Assembly (NCBI GenBank): GCA_039803545.1
Contig: JBDRYS010000001.1
Location: 747,866 to 811,865 of the forward strand
Source of the DNA: a candidate division WOR-3 bacterium
Lineage (GTDB): Bacteria; Hydrothermota; Hydrothermia; UBA1063
Direction of reading: 5' to 3'
DNA: 64,000 bases
Positions 41,715 to 58,503 of this stretch are shown here, in pieces (within the stretch, counting starts at the first letter, position 1; every line of letters begins with the position of its first letter). The position numbers and the translations under genes were made by a program. The notes below the pieces were generated by a model. It did no database searches, had not been told where the DNA came from, and worked only from the letters and a program-made list of their open reading frames with translations.

Positions 41715-41758
41715 TAGCTATCCACCTCCTCTTCAAAAACTGATTATCTCAACAACAT

Positions 41759-42895
41759 TTAAATTCTCCCGAGATACAGGCAATTATTAACTTTATCCAC
41801 GATACAAATAGAATCCTTTTCCTCCTTCGCCTTTAAAAGGGCAAAATCTGCTAAAGCATAAAAGAAGAACTCATCCTGATTTGTTTCCAGGCTGCTCACA
41901 AGAACACAACCTACAGAAAAAGTTGATTTGCTTTGTAAGTCCATTTGAGAATTCACATACTCTTCTTTTATTTCTCTGAAGGCATTAACTATTCTACCAG
42001 TATCAGACATTCCGACAAGAATCACACCAAATTCGTCTCCCCCGACACGGCCTACGTAATCCGTTGCGCGGAACCTTTTGGCCAATATCTTGCCAAAATT
42101 CTTTAAATATTCATCACCTTTTAAGTGGCCAAAATAATCGTTAATCTATTTAAAGTTATCAAGGTCAATCATACAAAAGACCAAACTATTATCTCTGTTA
42201 GCCGATTTCTGTATTTCTATTTTGAGTGTGCTGACAAGGGAATTCCGATTCATAACACCAGTCAAGCCATCGGTTTCAGCTATCTTCTTAAGAAGCAAAG
42301 TATTCAAGAAATTCTCCCTTTCCAATCTCTCTAAAACATATGCCACAAAAAGCCCACCCACATAAGTGGAAACGAGAAAGAAGTTGTTATTGATAAAAAC
42401 TTCCTTTGGTAATGGATTCAATTTTAAACTAACAAACTGGAAGCCAACTAAAAGAATAAGACCGTTTATCGCTGCGTAACCAAACCGTAATCTTAAAAGA
42501 GTAAAGTTGAAAAACAAAACGAGGGTCAACCCCTGAGAATACAAGTACATTGAAGGGGGTTTTATTACTGCGAGCATTGCGAGAATGCCAAATCCTCCAA
42601 TTAAAACAGCAACTGAAGCAAGGAAATCAAAATGCACCTTGAGAGGCTTTAAAAGACTCAACAGTACAATGATAATTACGATTGGAATAACGAATTCAAA
42701 CCTGATTCTCCAGATTATATCCTTTAAGGGCCCGACTATGACTGAATCGAGCAAGGCAAAGATCGCATACAAAAAAATTCCGAAAAGAAGCGCAAATCGG
42801 AAAATTGGCAAGGATTTTGTAGAATATTCTTCCAGAAACTTTTGCTCGAGGGCTTTTTCCCTAAACTTTAGAGATAAAAACTTCAACTCTGCCAT
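41759..42895 (-). pseudogene. Membrane diguanylate cyclase (GGDEF) interrupted by an in-frame TAG
   Basis: The frame reads as one ~378-residue protein. About six membrane segments (~20-200) are followed by a GGDEF domain with DGLTGVMNR, DLDNFK, then TAG, then INDYFGH and VGGDEFGVIL. The TAG (42148-42146) replaces a variable residue in the conserved metal-loop motif DNFK-x-IND. Everything after it remains in frame and intact. TAG is a real stop elsewhere here (gatA, purN, dinB), so this is most likely a nonsense mutation or sequencing error. The start at 42895 fits a promoter ten bases upstream. Confidence 0.8.
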
Positions 42896-42905
42896 AGCAG
42901 GCATA

Positions 42906-51267: not shown

Positions 51268-54200
51268 ATGTTTTTAGAACTTGTAGACAATCTGCGAGAC
51301 GAACTTACGCAGGTTTACAACCGCCGCTATCTCGATTTTATCTTTTCCCAGGAATTGAAGAAAATAAGAAGGTATGGCGGTCAATTCTCCGTTCTCTATA
51401 TTGATCTCGATGACTTCAACCTTATAAATAACCTTTACGGTCATCGGGAAGGAGACAGACTTTTATATGAATTTGCCCAGTTTCTCGCTAAATCTTTGCG
51501 GGAAACTGACTCAGTAATAAGGTTGAGCGGCGACGAGTTTATTGTTATTCTAACTCACACCCCTGCCTCTAACGCAAAAGCTGTGTGTGAAAGGATAATT
51601 AATGAACTCAAAAAGAAAGATTTTAAAAACAGCAAACTGTCTTGTTCCATAGGGGTCGTTGAAGTTCCAACCAACGGAACAGATTGGCACACTATTTTTT
51701 CAAGACTGGAAGTGGCACTATTTAAAGCCAAAAAGTCTGGGAAAGGGACATATTACGTCTTACAGGAAAAGGACGCTGTTAGTCCCATCATACCTGCTCC
51801 CGTTATTTCTGGAAGGAAAAAGGAATTGGCCTGGCTAATTGAAAGAATCAACAATTCAGAGGTTTCATTGATAGCAGTTTCAGGTGCCCCTGGAGTAGGG
51901 AAATCTACCCTAATCAAAGAAGCGCTAAAGAATCTAAGAGATACTCTTGTTGTTATTGCAAAATCATCGATAGATGAATCATCGGGACCTTTCTCACCCT
52001 TTAGAACGATTCTGAAAAAAATTAAAGAGTTTGACTACTTCGCTTTTAAGGAAGCCTTTGAAACCCTTGACGAAACCGAAAGGGTAACCCTCGGGTTACT
52101 CTATCCTGAGCTGGGATACATACCAGAGAATGTGGATAGATATAAATTTTACGACGCCTACGTGAAACTAATTTCGATACTTTCTGACCGCCAGAAAATT
52201 GTTGCCTTCATAGACGATATACACTTAGCAGATTCTACAACCCTTGAACTCTTGTATTATTTACTGCATGCAGATTTGAAGAAAATTAAATTTGTAATTG
52301 CATTCAGAAAGGAAGACCATGAAAACAAGGGTTTTGAGAAGTTCTATTCCCATGTAACGAGGGAAAGACTTATTGAAGAGTTGCAACTAAAAGAATTAAG
52401 CCGGGCTGAAGCCTTTGACTTAATCGAAACTATTCTCCAGAGGAAATGTTCTGAAAACTTAAAGGAAAGGTTATACGAGAAATGCGATGGAAATCCCTAT
52501 TTCCTTGAGGAGACGATTAAAGAGTTCTTTAAGCATGAAATCATTTACCTTGACGGAGAAAACTGGAATATCAAGGCCGATTTTAAGGACCACGTTCCAG
52601 AGTCTATCCAGAACATTTTAACTGAGAGATTAAAACGTTTCCAAAGCGAAAAACTTCTGGAAATAATGGCTTGCCTTGGAAATGAATTCAATCTTAAAAT
52701 CCTCGAGCTTGTTACACAAACGAACTTAGGTGAAATCTTTGACACGATCGACAAATTGATAAGAAGTGGAATCCTTGTAGAAAGAAACGTTGATACCTTC
52801 GCTTTCAAGGAAGGATTAACACGGGAAATGATACTATCCCAGTTAAATGAACCTCGAAAAAGATTCATACACAGGAGCATCTTATCAGTTTTAGAAAAAC
52901 ACGCGGAAGTTCTAAAGATACCAGAAGAGAAGCTTGCTTACCATGCATATTACGCTGGTGAAAAGGAAAAAGTGAAAAAATACTCACTAAATGCAGCGAG
53001 AAAATGTAAAAAGTTCTATGCTTACGAAGAGGCGAAAAAATATTACAAATGGTACTTATGGAATGAAGATGACCTTCAAAAGGCAAAGGAAGCCGCCATT
53101 GAATATGCAGATCTACTTTTGCTTACTGGAGACATATCGGAAGCAATTGACGAATTGAACTCATACTTATTGAGATTTGGAGAAGATGCAGCTATATTGG
53201 ATAAATTAGCCGAAGCCTATTCAAAATCTGGAAAATTTTACGAGGCAGTTGAAAGTATTGAGAAGGCAATTAAAATTGAACCTAAAAATATTTACATTTT
53301 GAGGAAGGCCTGGCTCCTTCTATATGCAGAAAAGATAAGGGAAGCGTTGAATATTCTCGAAGAGTTTAAGAAAAGGGAGAAGGAACTCACAGAGCAGGAA
53401 AAGGCTTATTATTTTAACACCTTTGCCCTTCTCCTTATGGAGGAGGAAGAATACGAAGAAGCCGAAAAATATTTTAAAAGGGCTTTAGAACTGCGGGAAA
53501 AACTCGGAAATGAAAGAGGCGTAGCGAATATCCACTTAAATCTGGGAACTTTATATGCAAATCAGGGCCTTCATGTCAAAGCCTTAGAGGAATATGAAAA
53601 GGCTAAGGAAACTTACGACGCCATCGGCGACAAAAGAGGGATGCTAACGGCAATTCACAACTATAGCGATACCTTGAGATACTTAAGGAGACACGAAGAA
53701 GCTATAAAGGGTCTTGAAAATGCAATAAAAATAGCCAGGCAAATCAGAGATGATATGTCTTTGATATTGGGTTTATGCAATTTGGCTTCCATATATATCG
53801 AAATTGGTGAATTTGAAAAAGTAGAGAAACTCCTAACTGAAGCAGAACAGATGTCAAAAAGTCTACAAATCGAAGCGCTGGATATTTACGTCAAAAAAAT
53901 ACTCATGTCCTTTTACAGCAAGGGCAATAGAGATGAAGGAACAGCATTAAGAGTTTTTGAAGAGATTAAAGAACTACTACCTAAAATTGACTCGAGGGCC
54001 ACCCTTATTGATGCTGTCCTCGAGACCGCAGAAAGCTTGCTATTACTTGGAAAGATAGACCTTGCGAAGCCACTAATCGAAAAGTTCGAGAACATCCTGG
54101 AAGAATCAAAAACCTTCGACTTCAGATTGAAATATTACATTATCAAAGCTATTCTGAGCCACAAATTCCATGACAAACAAGCCTACGCAGAATCGTTGAA

Positions 54201-54408
54201 GAAACTTGGATTACTGCGAAAGGATTTAAGAGAAGATGAAAAGGCTCGATATATTGAGTACTTAGCAATCCTTCTTGGAACCATAGGTAAAACAGAGGGG
54301 ATGAAAAAAATGATATCCAGATTAATGGAAAATGCCCAAAAAGAAATGTTTAATCTTGAAATTGTGAGACTAACCCTACTAAAGGAAAATTTGGAAAGGA
54401 CTTTTTAA
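51268..54408 (+). CDS. GGDEF - STAND-type AAA ATPase - TPR signalling protein (first)
   Basis: This 1046-residue cytosolic protein has three parts. Residues ~1-165 are a diguanylate cyclase domain with LTQVYNRRYLD, IDLDDFNLINNLYGHREGD and the signature S-G-D-E-F at 87-91. An inhibitory RxxD site (R78-D81) lies five residues before. Residues ~180-560 are an AAA_16/STAND-like NTPase: Walker A GAPGVGKST at 206-214, Walker B FIDDIHLAD near 315. Residues ~590-900 are TPR-like helical repeats. The layout mirrors adenylate cyclase-AAA-TPR proteins with the cyclase replaced by GGDEF. It abuts its paralogue. No membrane segment. Confidence 0.85.
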   Translation: MFLELVDNLRDELTQVYNRRYLDFIFSQELKKIRRYGGQFSVLYIDLDDFNLINNLYGHREGDRLLYEFAQFLAKSLRETDSVIRLSGDEFIVILTHTPASNAKAVCERIINELKKKDFKNSKLSCSIGVVEVPTNGTDWHTIFSRLEVALFKAKKSGKGTYYVLQEKDAVSPIIPAPVISGRKKELAWLIERINNSEVSLIAVSGAPGVGKSTLIKEALKNLRDTLVVIAKSSIDESSGPFSPFRTILKKIKEFDYFAFKEAFETLDETERVTLGLLYPELGYIPENVDRYKFYDAYVKLISILSDRQKIVAFIDDIHLADSTTLELLYYLLHADLKKIKFVIAFRKEDHENKGFEKFYSHVTRERLIEELQLKELSRAEAFDLIETILQRKCSENLKERLYEKCDGNPYFLEETIKEFFKHEIIYLDGENWNIKADFKDHVPESIQNILTERLKRFQSEKLLEIMACLGNEFNLKILELVTQTNLGEIFDTIDKLIRSGILVERNVDTFAFKEGLTREMILSQLNEPRKRFIHRSILSVLEKHAEVLKIPEEKLAYHAYYAGEKEKVKKYSLNAARKCKKFYAYEEAKKYYKWYLWNEDDLQKAKEAAIEYADLLLLTGDISEAIDELNSYLLRFGEDAAILDKLAEAYSKSGKFYEAVESIEKAIKIEPKNIYILRKAWLLLYAEKIREALNILEEFKKREKELTEQEKAYYFNTFALLLMEEEEYEEAEKYFKRALELREKLGNERGVANIHLNLGTLYANQGLHVKALEEYEKAKETYDAIGDKRGMLTAIHNYSDTLRYLRRHEEAIKGLENAIKIARQIRDDMSLILGLCNLASIYIEIGEFEKVEKLLTEAEQMSKSLQIEALDIYVKKILMSFYSKGNRDEGTALRVFEEIKELLPKIDSRATLIDAVLETAESLLLLGKIDLAKPLIEKFENILEESKTFDFRLKYYIIKAILSHKFHDKQAYAESLKKLGLLRKDLREDEKARYIEYLAILLGTIGKTEGMKKMISRLMENAQKEMFNLEIVRLTLLKENLERTF

Positions 54409-57400
54409 ATGATATCTGAAACCATGAAAAATTTCGTTGACGATTTAACGGGCGCACTCGCAAGGGGTGCAATATATTCGCTCTTAGAGCAGGAGATAAA
54501 ACGAATTAAAAGATACGGAGGGAAAAGTTCTCTATTATTCATCGACCTTGATAATTTTAAGGCTTTAAATGACCTCCACGGACATCTTGAAGGCGACAAA
54601 GCATTAGTCTCCTTTGTTCAGCTCTTAAAAAATACATTGCGCGAATCCGATACCATCACAAGGTACGGTGGTGATGAATTTATTGTTCTACTTCCTAACA
54701 CACCTTTGGAAAGTGCAGAAAGCGTTGCCGAAAGGATTATCAAAAATCTTCAAAAGGAAAATTCGGAGATTTCTTGCTCCATTGGTATCGTCGAAATCCC
54801 AACCCACGGAACCGAAACGGAAATTTTAATTGAAAAAGCTGACAAAGCTATGTATAGGGCTAAGCAGACAGGCAAAGGAAGATTTCTCGTCTACATCGAA
54901 GAAACTTTGTATCCAAAGATTCCATCTAAAATTTTTGTCGGGCGGCAAAAGGAAAAAGCAAAACTGACTCACCTGCTTAAAGAAAACTATTCTATAATTT
55001 TAATTAAAGGAGAGGTGGGAGTTGGCAAAACTCGATTTGCACTCGAAAGTCTGAACCTACTGGAAGACACAAAAATTTTAAGTACGCAGTGCTACGGGAG
55101 CCTTTCGGAGATCCCATATGTACCCTTCCAGGAGCTTATAAAAAAGTACAGAGAAAAAAATGAAATAGGGTTTAGAGAAATCTACTCTAAATTGGACCCT
55201 TACCAAAAACAGGCCTTAAACCCCATCATCCCAGATTTAACTCAGCCACAAGCCGCTGATATAGGGGTTTTCAAATTCTTTGAAACTTTCATGCAATTAC
55301 TGGAAGAAATAGCCAGCAATAAACAATTAATCGTATACATTGACGACATCCACTGGATTGACAGCAGCTCAGCAAACTTAATCAATTACATCGTAAGAAA
55401 CATGCCGAACAATATAAAAATTTTGGGAACGGCCAGAACTGAAGAACTTGAAAGATCAAAGGTAAAAGAGATACTCACTAAGCTTTCTGATGAAAAACTC
55501 CTTACAGAACTCGAAGTATTACCCCTTGATGAAGCCTCGACCTTCGAACTTGTGGAGTCAATCCTGCAAGCTTCAGTCAATGAAGACCTCAAGAAACTGG
55601 TTTATCAAAAAACCGGTGGGAACCCATTATTCGTTGAGGAAACGATAAAACAACTTTTTGACCGAGGCCATATAGTCTACGAAGACGATGAATGGAAATT
55701 AAAAGATATAAGCACAAACTTTCTACCTGAAACTGTTGAAGTTCTTATAAAGAATAAACTAAAAAAGTTCTCAGGTGAAAAGGTTCTGGAAGTGGCGGCG
55801 ATAATAGGGCAGGAGTTTCACATTGACCTTTTAGCAAGTGTCACAAACTTGAACCGTGGTTACATATACGAGGTTATCAACAAACTCTTAAAAGAGAATT
55901 TAATAGAGCCTTTAGGTGAAGACTACTTTGCCTTCAAAGAAGGTCTTATAAGAGATGCAATTTTAAGCGAAATCAGCGAAGCTAAGAAAAGGTATATCTC
56001 GAAGACGATTTTAGAGGTCCTTGAAAATAAACTTCCCAGTTTCTCTGGAAAGGAAGAGCTGTGTGCCTACCATGCGTGGCGTGCACAGGAAAAAGAAAAA
56101 GTTAAATTTTACTCAAAACATGCTGCAGACAAGCTAAAGAAAAATTTTGCTTACGACGAAGCCATAAAGTTCTTGCAATGGTACATAGAGGTTGAAGAAA
56201 ACGATGCAGAGAGGGAAAAAGCCTTCACAGAATACGTCACCCTTCTCTCCTTCAAGGGCGAATTGAAAAGGGCGATACAACTCCTTAGAAGCTATATCGA
56301 GAATAACAAGGTAACGGCACTTTCTTACAGGAAGTTGGCTGAACTTCTAATTGAAAGTGGTGATCCTAAGGGTGCTTTAGAGGCAATTGAGAGAGCCTTA
56401 GAACTCGAAGAAAGCGCAGACTCTCTCGTCCTTAAAGCATGGATACTGAAAAGGCAATTCAAAATCCAGGAGTCTTACAACCTCCTCGAGAATCTTTTAA
56501 ATCGAAAAGATCTTACCATTGACGAAAAAACCCTTGCAGACGCTTACACTGTACAAGCATTAAATCTAATGGATTTAAATCAAGTCGAAAAGGCTTTAGA
56601 ACTCCTTGATAAAGCAGAAGAACTTAGAAATAAGCTACAAAACATACGAGGGCTTGGAAGTGTCTGTGTAAACCGAGCGCTTGTCTTATCAAGAATCGGA
56701 AAATACGAAGAAACCCTTAAAGAATACGACAGAGCAGAATTTTACTACAGGAAGGCTGGATACAAACCTGGCCTTATAACTGTTCTTAATAATAAAGCTT
56801 CCATTTACCTTGATCTAAGGAAATTTAATGAAGCCCTCGACAACTTCAAAAAGGCAGCCACGGAATCTAAAAAGATTTTCGACAGGCATCTTCTTGCCCT
56901 TGCTTTAAACAACATTTCTGTAACCCTTAGATACATGGAATACCATGAGGAGGCACTAAAAGCTATTCAAGAAGCATACGAAGTTGCGAGCGAACTCGGG
57001 ATGAAAGACGCCTTAATTTCAATCCGAAGAAATATGGCATACAGTTATGCCGTTGGATTCAAAAACTTAGACAAGGCAATTCCAATTATAAGCGAAGTTT
57101 TAGAGGAAATTGGTGGACCCAGCAAAACCTATGCAAGTCTCTTAGTGTACTTGCAGGCAATAGAAATCTTTCTTATTGCAAGAGATTATAATAAGGTTAA
57201 AGAACTTTTCGATGCCCTCAATAAAGTTATTGATAACAGTGTTTACGATGAAATAAAAATAGGTGCATACTCCACCGAAATGGCATTCAAATTGTACCTC
57301 GGACAAAGGGAAGACTTTAAGGGGGCTTCACAAAAAGCACTTTCGATCCTTGAAAAAGCAGACCCACATCTTAGACCTATCCTATGGATAAGTTTTTTGG

Positions 57401-57573
57401 AAGGTATAGCTGACACCTTTTCCTACCTCGGAAGAAGCGATGTATCTCTTAAAATTCTGGATTACCTTCTAAAATATTGCAGGAAGCACTCTTTTACTCA
57501 GGACATTGACCGCCTCCAGAGAAAAATTGAACGGATTAGAAAACTTTTCCCAGTTGACTCTTCACAAAAATAA
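54409..57573 (+). CDS. GGDEF - STAND-type AAA ATPase - TPR signalling protein (second)
   Basis: This 1054-residue paralogue of the previous protein has the same order. Its GGDEF domain is canonical (G-G-D-E-F at 87-91) with an intact RxxD site (R78-D81). Walker A is GEVGVGKT at 201-208 and Walker B is YIDDIHWID. TPR repeats follow the ATPase (~590-930). Its ATG follows the first gene's stop directly, with an AAAGGA site inside that gene. The pair likely arose by tandem duplication. The likely output is c-di-GMP made under control of ATPase and TPR sensing, possibly of a protein ligand. Confidence 0.87.
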   Translation: MISETMKNFVDDLTGALARGAIYSLLEQEIKRIKRYGGKSSLLFIDLDNFKALNDLHGHLEGDKALVSFVQLLKNTLRESDTITRYGGDEFIVLLPNTPLESAESVAERIIKNLQKENSEISCSIGIVEIPTHGTETEILIEKADKAMYRAKQTGKGRFLVYIEETLYPKIPSKIFVGRQKEKAKLTHLLKENYSIILIKGEVGVGKTRFALESLNLLEDTKILSTQCYGSLSEIPYVPFQELIKKYREKNEIGFREIYSKLDPYQKQALNPIIPDLTQPQAADIGVFKFFETFMQLLEEIASNKQLIVYIDDIHWIDSSSANLINYIVRNMPNNIKILGTARTEELERSKVKEILTKLSDEKLLTELEVLPLDEASTFELVESILQASVNEDLKKLVYQKTGGNPLFVEETIKQLFDRGHIVYEDDEWKLKDISTNFLPETVEVLIKNKLKKFSGEKVLEVAAIIGQEFHIDLLASVTNLNRGYIYEVINKLLKENLIEPLGEDYFAFKEGLIRDAILSEISEAKKRYISKTILEVLENKLPSFSGKEELCAYHAWRAQEKEKVKFYSKHAADKLKKNFAYDEAIKFLQWYIEVEENDAEREKAFTEYVTLLSFKGELKRAIQLLRSYIENNKVTALSYRKLAELLIESGDPKGALEAIERALELEESADSLVLKAWILKRQFKIQESYNLLENLLNRKDLTIDEKTLADAYTVQALNLMDLNQVEKALELLDKAEELRNKLQNIRGLGSVCVNRALVLSRIGKYEETLKEYDRAEFYYRKAGYKPGLITVLNNKASIYLDLRKFNEALDNFKKAATESKKIFDRHLLALALNNISVTLRYMEYHEEALKAIQEAYEVASELGMKDALISIRRNMAYSYAVGFKNLDKAIPIISEVLEEIGGPSKTYASLLVYLQAIEIFLIARDYNKVKELFDALNKVIDNSVYDEIKIGAYSTEMAFKLYLGQREDFKGASQKALSILEKADPHLRPILWISFLEGIADTFSYLGRSDVSLKILDYLLKYCRKHSFTQDIDRLQRKIERIRKLFPVDSSQK

Positions 57574-57588: not shown

Positions 57589-58503
57589 ATGAAACCAATC
57601 GAAATATGGCCATTTAAAACTTTAAAAGTTGGTAGTCCATTTTTCATACATAACGTTAAAATTTACCCTGTAGAAGGACAACTGGGGCACGATGGCTTTA
57701 CCACTCTCGAGGAAGCAATTAAAGAGAACCATATCGTTCTCAAGGATATTTACGGTGTTGACCAAATATCCATTCATAACAGTGGAGGAAGTCCTGTCTT
57801 TGCCATTGACGGTGAAGAACTTCTCGGAGCAAGGCAAAACCGGATCATAAATGTGGATGCATTTATCGAGCCTCAGAGGGAATATGTGGTTCCGGTTACC
57901 TGCATTGAACAACACCGGTGGTCTGGAAGTCCCATTTTCAGCGAAGGTGGATTTACAATAACCCCCTCCCTAAGAAGTACCTTAGCTCAAACCGTCAAAA
58001 CCTCCCTCGAAAAAAAGCAGGGATTTAAGAGCAACCAGTCACTAATCTGGTCACAGATCGACAGCACCCTCAAAGCAACAAAGATAAGTAGTATGACCAG
58101 TTCCTTCCATGACATTTACAAATCCCTTAATGATGTGATTGAAGAATTTATGGAAGGATTTGACACCATCGAAAATTCCATCGGATTTTTAGCATACGTA
58201 AAGGATGAATTCATAGGATGCGACATCTTCGGTTCAAACTCGACCTACAGAAAATTCGAGAAAAAATTGTTAAAAAGTTACGTTCTCGATGGATACATCC
58301 GGAGATATGTTAAAGGTCCCGCTTTGCCCGCATCGCCTGAAGAGGTAATGAACCTCGTGGGCGAAACAACGGTAAAAAAACATAAATCGCCGACAGAAGG
58401 GGAAGTTTTAATAGGAGGCAAAGAAGGCCTAATTACAAAGATATTCCACCTCCAAGGTAATCTCTTACATGCAGCTGCTTTCCCCGTTGGAACAAGCTCT
58501 TGA
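57589..58503 (+). CDS. ARPP-1 domain protein (DUF6569-like)
   Basis: This 304-residue protein has the ARPP-1 pattern: FAIDGEELLGARQNRIINVD at ~72-91, VPVTCIEQHRWSG at ~102-114, and QSLIWSQID further on. ARPP-1 was named for its association with ADP-ribosylglycohydrolase and rhodanese-phosphatase domains in other genomes. Its biochemical role is not established. It has its own leaderless promoter just after the GGDEF-STAND pair, 15 bases past the stop. A functional link to them is only suggested by position. Confidence 0.65.
   Translation: MKPIEIWPFKTLKVGSPFFIHNVKIYPVEGQLGHDGFTTLEEAIKENHIVLKDIYGVDQISIHNSGGSPVFAIDGEELLGARQNRIINVDAFIEPQREYVVPVTCIEQHRWSGSPIFSEGGFTITPSLRSTLAQTVKTSLEKKQGFKSNQSLIWSQIDSTLKATKISSMTSSFHDIYKSLNDVIEEFMEGFDTIENSIGFLAYVKDEFIGCDIFGSNSTYRKFEKKLLKSYVLDGYIRRYVKGPALPASPEEVMNLVGETTVKKHKSPTEGEVLIGGKEGLITKIFHLQGNLLHAAAFPVGTSS

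Follow-up and report, generated by a model that had tools for sequence, protein, structure and literature searches.

A tandem pair of GGDEF-STAND-TPR proteins in a candidate division WOR-3 bacterium points to a probable NTPase-gated second-messenger switch

Results

Two abutting genes combine GGDEF, STAND and TPR regions

We analyzed a window of 64,000 nucleotides from a candidate division WOR-3 bacterium of the phylum Hydrothermota (assembly GCA_039803545.1, contig JBDRYS010000001.1, positions 747,866 to 811,865 of the forward strand; coordinates below are those of the window unless a locus is named). On its plus strand lie two large open reading frames (ORFs) with 0 bp between them: P1 (51268..54408), a protein of 1046 amino acids (aa) with an altered GGDEF active site (SGDEF, FN for FK, and NN for ND), and P2 (54409..57573), of 1054 aa, with a canonical one. 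The original prediction had taken these for two soluble chains, each joining GGDEF, AAA_16/STAND and tetratricopeptide repeat (TPR) regions, and domain searches bear this out: GGDEF, AAA_16 and many TPR models all score above the Pfam gathering scores in both proteins, NCBIfam agrees on the GGDEF assignment, and neither chain has a transmembrane segment (maximal 19-residue Kyte-Doolittle mean, 1.37). The Pfam scan of P1 and P2 returned no effector domain other than GGDEF, and the NCBIfam scan no named equivalog above its cut-off.

The order of domains is the same in both proteins. In P1, the GGDEF domain (aa 10-159, 51295..51744; PF00990, E 8.6e-40) is followed by a STAND nucleotide-binding oligomerization domain (NOD) consisting of a nucleotide-binding domain (NBD), a helical domain and a winged helix (about aa 176-515, 51793..52812; Pfam AAA_16, E 1.3e-15, AlphaFold model, and Foldseek match to 6mfv), by an arm domain of helical hairpins (about aa 516-600, 52813..53067; from the model and by analogy with PH0952, PMC6468293), and by a TPR sensor superhelix (aa 603-1044, 53074..54399; Pfam TPR families and model). 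P2 carries a GGDEF domain (aa 9-157, 54433..54879; PF00990, E 4.9e-41), a STAND NOD of the same three parts (about aa 172-511, 54922..55941; AAA_16, E 1.5e-16, model and Foldseek), an arm (about aa 512-596, 55942..56196; model) and a TPR sensor superhelix (aa 599-1046, 56203..57546; Pfam TPR families and model).

The middle region has the motifs and fold of a STAND protein

STAND proteins are defined by an AAA+-type NBD, a helical domain and a STAND-specific winged helix, together with an arm, a sensor and an effector at either end (PMC6468293). The original prediction had staked itself on an AAA/STAND fold in the middle region, and such a fold is supported by AAA_16, Walker A and B motifs, a GNP motif, structural models and their best structural match. 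The NBD carries Walker A GAPGVGKS and Walker B IDD in P1, and GEVGVGKT and IDD in P2. Walker A G206, G209, G211 and K212, Walker B D316, and G408 and N409 of the GNP motif are invariant in 26 homologues, and P410 of the latter is nearly so; Walker A, Walker B and a GxP-type motif are thus all conserved. AlphaFold2 models built with the 26 homologues (mean predicted local distance difference test score, 86.5 for P1 and 88.8 for P2) place the GGDEF domain first, then the three parts of the NOD, the arm and, last, a TPR superhelix that spans about 440 residues, and AAA_16, the secondary structure of the models and Foldseek agree that the NBD and helical domain are followed by the STAND-specific winged helix. 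In P1, the arm and repeat sensor lie behind this core and the terminal GGDEF effector in front of it.

For both models the best Foldseek match in the PDB is PH0952 (6mfv; E 3e-15 and 5e-15), the first solved STAND protein with a TPR sensor (PMC6468293). Searched by sequence, the P1 middle region matched nothing in the PDB; the match emerged from the fold comparison. Because sequence motifs and fold match, the assignment of the middle regions of P1 and P2 to the STAND class is well supported, as far as motifs and models can tell. The modeled GGDEF domains superpose on solved isolated GGDEF domains at 1.4-3 Å.

P2 has a canonical GGDEF active site and P1 an altered but constrained one

The columns of the GGDEF domain that are invariant in the 26 homologues include D46, D48, N54 and D63, which are metal and base residues, R78 and D81 of the RxxD inhibitory site, and G88 and D89. 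P2 keeps every PleD-equivalent catalytic position that we examined, with the GG[DE]EF motif and the residues at PleD D327, N335, D344 and E370 that bind metal and guanine; it should be an active diguanylate cyclase. Its RxxD (aa 78-81) and GGDEF (aa 87-91) motifs span 54640..54681. P1 retains D46, N54, D63, D89 and E90 and has S87 in place of Gly (SGDEF motif, 51526..51540), Asn51 at the position of PleD Lys332 (51418..51420) and N55 in place of Asp; its RxxD motif (51499..51510) is intact. SGDEF in one protein, GGDEF in the other and RxxD in both had been correctly read from the start. The PleD D344 position serves as the rule for calling a Hypr-type (cyclic GMP-AMP) substrate; it is Asp in P1 and P2, and we see no sign of such a substrate change.

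The P1 alterations are shared by its relatives. The Lys332 position is Asn in all four P1-type proteins and Lys (once Arg) in all other family members; the four also have NN or NT in place of ND, and their motif is SGDEF in three and GGDKF in one, a form that we find hard to reconcile with catalysis. They nonetheless keep RxxD and the Walker motifs. Constraint between congeners is strong, with protein identity of 74-77% and dN of 0.14-0.16, and the GGDEF domain is better conserved than the TPR region; dS is saturated, so that we dropped whole-protein dN/dS and give dN only. The GGDEF domain is the best-kept part of P1 between the source genome and its nearest congener (84% identity, dN 0.088), which argues that the altered domain is under constraint. 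SGDEF cyclases can be active, as is reported for ECA3270 and MbaA (PMC3974145, PMC8079147), so the motif alone is no proof of P1 inactivity. P1 may be either a weaker cyclase or a regulatory or receptor version, and the latter competes closely with weak catalysis.

The pair is old and P2 has probably been lost in the line of two congeners

All four genomes of the genus (G000, the source, to G003) share a syntenic slot flanked by a D-amino-acid-transaminase-like gene and an ARPP-1 gene. The slot holds two genes in the same order in G000 and G002 and one in G001 and G003. The tree unites the six slot proteins (99/99); within this group, the single genes found in G001 and G003 cluster with P1 and leave P2 outside, so that the P1-type copy is retained in all four species. 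A recent tandem duplication in the G000/G002 line is rejected (approximately unbiased (AU) test, p = 1.4e-5). The description of P1 and P2 as paralogues holds in that they are an adjacent, related pair, but at about 32% identity they diverged anciently. We are less sure which is the nearer relative of P2, P1 or a third paralogue described below: grouping with the latter is not rejected (AU p 0.07), while support for P2 with P1 is 93/95 with fewer rows. The simplest history suggested by these trees is an old tandem pair that predates the genus, with loss of P2 in the G001/G003 line. A heterodimer had also been suggested; as two of the four congeneric genomes hold a single P1-like gene in the slot, this idea is weakened and an obligate P1-P2 heterodimer disfavored.

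The G003 slot protein (L035:6472-9618) is the one that reads GGDKF. This genome has 7 GGDEF and 2 HD-GYP genes, where its congeners have 11-12 and 10, and its cyclic di-GMP (c-di-GMP) network may be shrinking.

GGDEF-STAND-TPR proteins are a lineage-expanded family

A profile search across 147 genomes of this little-studied phylum found the architecture, from GGDEF to the beginning of the TPR region or beyond, in a minimum of about 46 genomes from 11 families. It is therefore a lineage-expanded family and not an oddity of the window, and the rarity implied by the original prediction was mistaken. The source genome (1.67 Mb) has four such genes among its 12 GGDEF genes; in the same order, judged by ORF length, they make up about 14 of 26 in G006 and about 8 of 22 in G005. 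Pfam scans of members from other families confirmed GGDEF, AAA_16 and TPR. The best plasmid matches are restricted to the ATPase-TPR part; those that carry an annotation are named as AAA ATPases or adenylate/guanylate cyclases. No study of GGDEF-STAND-TPR proteins surfaced in the open-access full-text literature, a scope that most subscription papers fall outside.

The two other members of the source genome lie elsewhere. The third paralogue (L032:3977-7225, at C1:70 kb; also L037, L038 and L039) is conserved in all four genomes of the genus and, in G000, adjoins Bac_transf sugar transferase and glycosyltransferase family 2 genes, in a gene layout shared by the congeners that hints at a possible exopolysaccharide link. 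The fourth (L033:5919-8600, 893 aa) is followed after 30 bp, in another frame, by a 237-aa TPR ORF (L033:8630-9343); its likely G002 orthologue is a single frame of 1142 aa, and the gene is probably split in G000.

A PilB-like ATPase is a candidate c-di-GMP receptor

The source genome encodes 12 GGDEF, 1 EAL, 10 HD-GYP and 3 MshEN proteins. No PilZ protein turned up in this genome and 12 relatives (13 genomes), and no RNA families, c-di-GMP riboswitches included, were found in the 64-kb window. A tandem 24-residue motif binds c-di-GMP in MshEN domains (PMC5013675). One MshEN ATPase, PilB-like (L053, G000:C1:727500-730000), reads KLGEILLNMGFITETELKLALEEQ-TRTGE-KLGEILLRLGLVTEEEISYAIAHQ, two near-intact tandem motifs with Lys for Arg. 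Because of this near-intact motif the ATPase is a candidate c-di-GMP receptor, and type IV pilus control a plausible target. A review of c-di-GMP sensing names neither TPR nor STAND (PMC8846402).

Neighboring genes

An ARPP-1 family gene (57589..58503, plus strand; PF20208, E 7e-62), which the original prediction had placed directly after the pair, does start 15 bp downstream of P2 and is probably co-transcribed with it. Of 41 genomes searched, 25 have ARPP-1, and a Nudix gene adjoins it in the genus and in G005. Adjacency of ARPP-1 to GGDEF-STAND-TPR genes was seen only in the four genomes of the genus; we discarded it as a functional partner, as many class members outside the genus have ARPP-1 with no such gene in flanks of about 1.5 kb.

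A further cyclase near 42 kb, likewise reported as broken, is a membrane-type GGDEF gene on the minus strand (about 41740-42900; GGDEF part, 41816-42280) whose GGDEF domain is interrupted by a single in-frame TAG. The orthologues that occupy the corresponding place in G001, G002 and G003 are open, and the TAG reflects either a recent pseudogene or a sequence error.

Discussion

The most likely reading of P1 and P2, given their motifs and modeled folds, is a second-messenger switch gated by an NTPase. We propose with moderate confidence that both are cytosolic STAND proteins with a GGDEF effector whose cyclase is activated through the STAND core, P2 being active and P1 weaker or regulatory. Diguanylate cyclases need their GGDEF domains face to face. 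Here the GGDEF domain lies at the extreme N terminus with no dimerizing coiled coil of its own, and dimerization would therefore have to come from elsewhere. At rest, the protein would be a monomer in which the arm and TPR sensor keep the nucleotide-binding core shut around ADP. Binding of a ligand or partner to the TPR superhelix would open the core, ADP would be exchanged for ATP, and the protein would multimerize, setting the N-terminal GGDEF domains face to face. c-di-GMP would then be made until product binding at RxxD stops synthesis, and could act on MshEN-bearing pilus ATPases.

Several points weigh against this proposal. Whole-chain superposition on PH0952 is poor (template modeling score 0.42 and 0.32 by target length, root-mean-square deviation 12-25 Å) because domain orientations differ, so the match is one of domain order and local fold, not of domain pose, and the models, being of single chains, cannot show oligomerization. 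No conserved neighbor links the pair to a c-di-GMP output. The P1 substitutions may abolish catalysis, and the GGDKF orthologue makes a purely catalytic role of the P1 clade unlikely.

This last point leads to a possible, if unlikely, alternative in which information flows in reverse: the GGDEF domain would be the input, sensing GTP at the active site or c-di-GMP at RxxD to set the STAND core, and the multimer would act on a protein partner. It fits the P1 type best, which keeps RxxD, D46/D48, N54 and D63 yet has FN, NN or NT, and S or K in the motif, whose GGDEF is its most conserved domain, and which is the copy present in all four species. Degenerate GGDEF domains that sense GTP or c-di-GMP have precedents in FimX and PopA (PMC8846402, PMC3974145). 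Against it stand the activity that SGDEF cyclases can have, the canonical sites of P2 and most of the family, and the lack of another effector domain in the P1 and P2 chains.

It is improbable that both proteins are ordinary, independent diguanylate cyclases with their own signals and an ATPase part that acts as a scaffold and switches little. The large number of such genes per genome, dispersed in unrelated neighborhoods, would suit this, but the Walker A Lys and Walker B Asp invariant in 26 homologues point to a nucleotide-dependent function. More doubtful is a dedicated heteromeric cyclase in which P1 would be the regulatory half and P2 the catalytic one: the genes abut, recur in the same order in a second species and pair one altered with one canonical GGDEF, but P1 functions without P2 where the slot holds the P1 type only, and a duplication older than the genus implies that P2 loss was tolerated. 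STAND-TPR architectures are common in defense systems. A part in an anti-phage or conflict STAND system is nevertheless very improbable, for although rare GGDEF domains generate signals in NTP-dependent conflict systems (PMC7159879), PADLOC yields nothing beyond generic TPR and weak matches, short of a defense call, in a housekeeping context that is stable across the genus and has no mobile-element neighbors in the conserved stretch.

Returning to the STAND-gated cyclase, we tentatively offer a wider version that we consider unlikely as a whole: that the phylum uses c-di-GMP switches gated by STAND assembly and not by PAS, GAF or REC domains, with a non-synthesizing P1 clade that reads GTP or c-di-GMP to set its STAND core. 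If so, a second messenger would be the input to an NLR (NOD-like receptor)-like hub in the P1 clade. STAND switches, the type to which MalT and APAF1 belong, are best known for control of transcription and immunity, whereas here the output would be a second-messenger enzyme, and a large natural family would link nucleotide-driven assembly to c-di-GMP levels. This would explain how members of the phylum could convert internal cues into c-di-GMP signals, and the contrast between P1 and P2 allows one to test directly whether GGDEF domains, once altered, turn into sensors.

P1 and P2 resemble several known systems. Pyrococcus horikoshii PH0952 (6mfv) and E. coli MalT share their NBD, helical domain, winged helix, arm and TPR order and fold, with an ArsR-like and a LuxR-like DNA-binding effector, respectively, in place of GGDEF. 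A Clostridium thermocellum protein with a kinase, six TPRs and GGDEF (PMC1262709) likewise unites GGDEF and TPR in one large chain, but its GGDEF domain is C-terminal, behind a Ser/Thr kinase, and the domain list of that paper names no STAND core. PleD, WspR and DosC resemble P1 and P2 in the GGDEF domain, its motifs and the RxxD site, whereas P1 and P2 lack PAS, GAF, REC or membrane input and have a STAND core and TPR superhelix after the GGDEF domain. In class III cyclase-AAA_16-TPR proteins of the soluble adenylyl cyclase type, an N-terminal cyclase is followed by a P-loop NTPase and then a TPR region, as in P1 and P2, where the catalytic domain is instead a GGDEF domain, for c-di-GMP, with one per chain.

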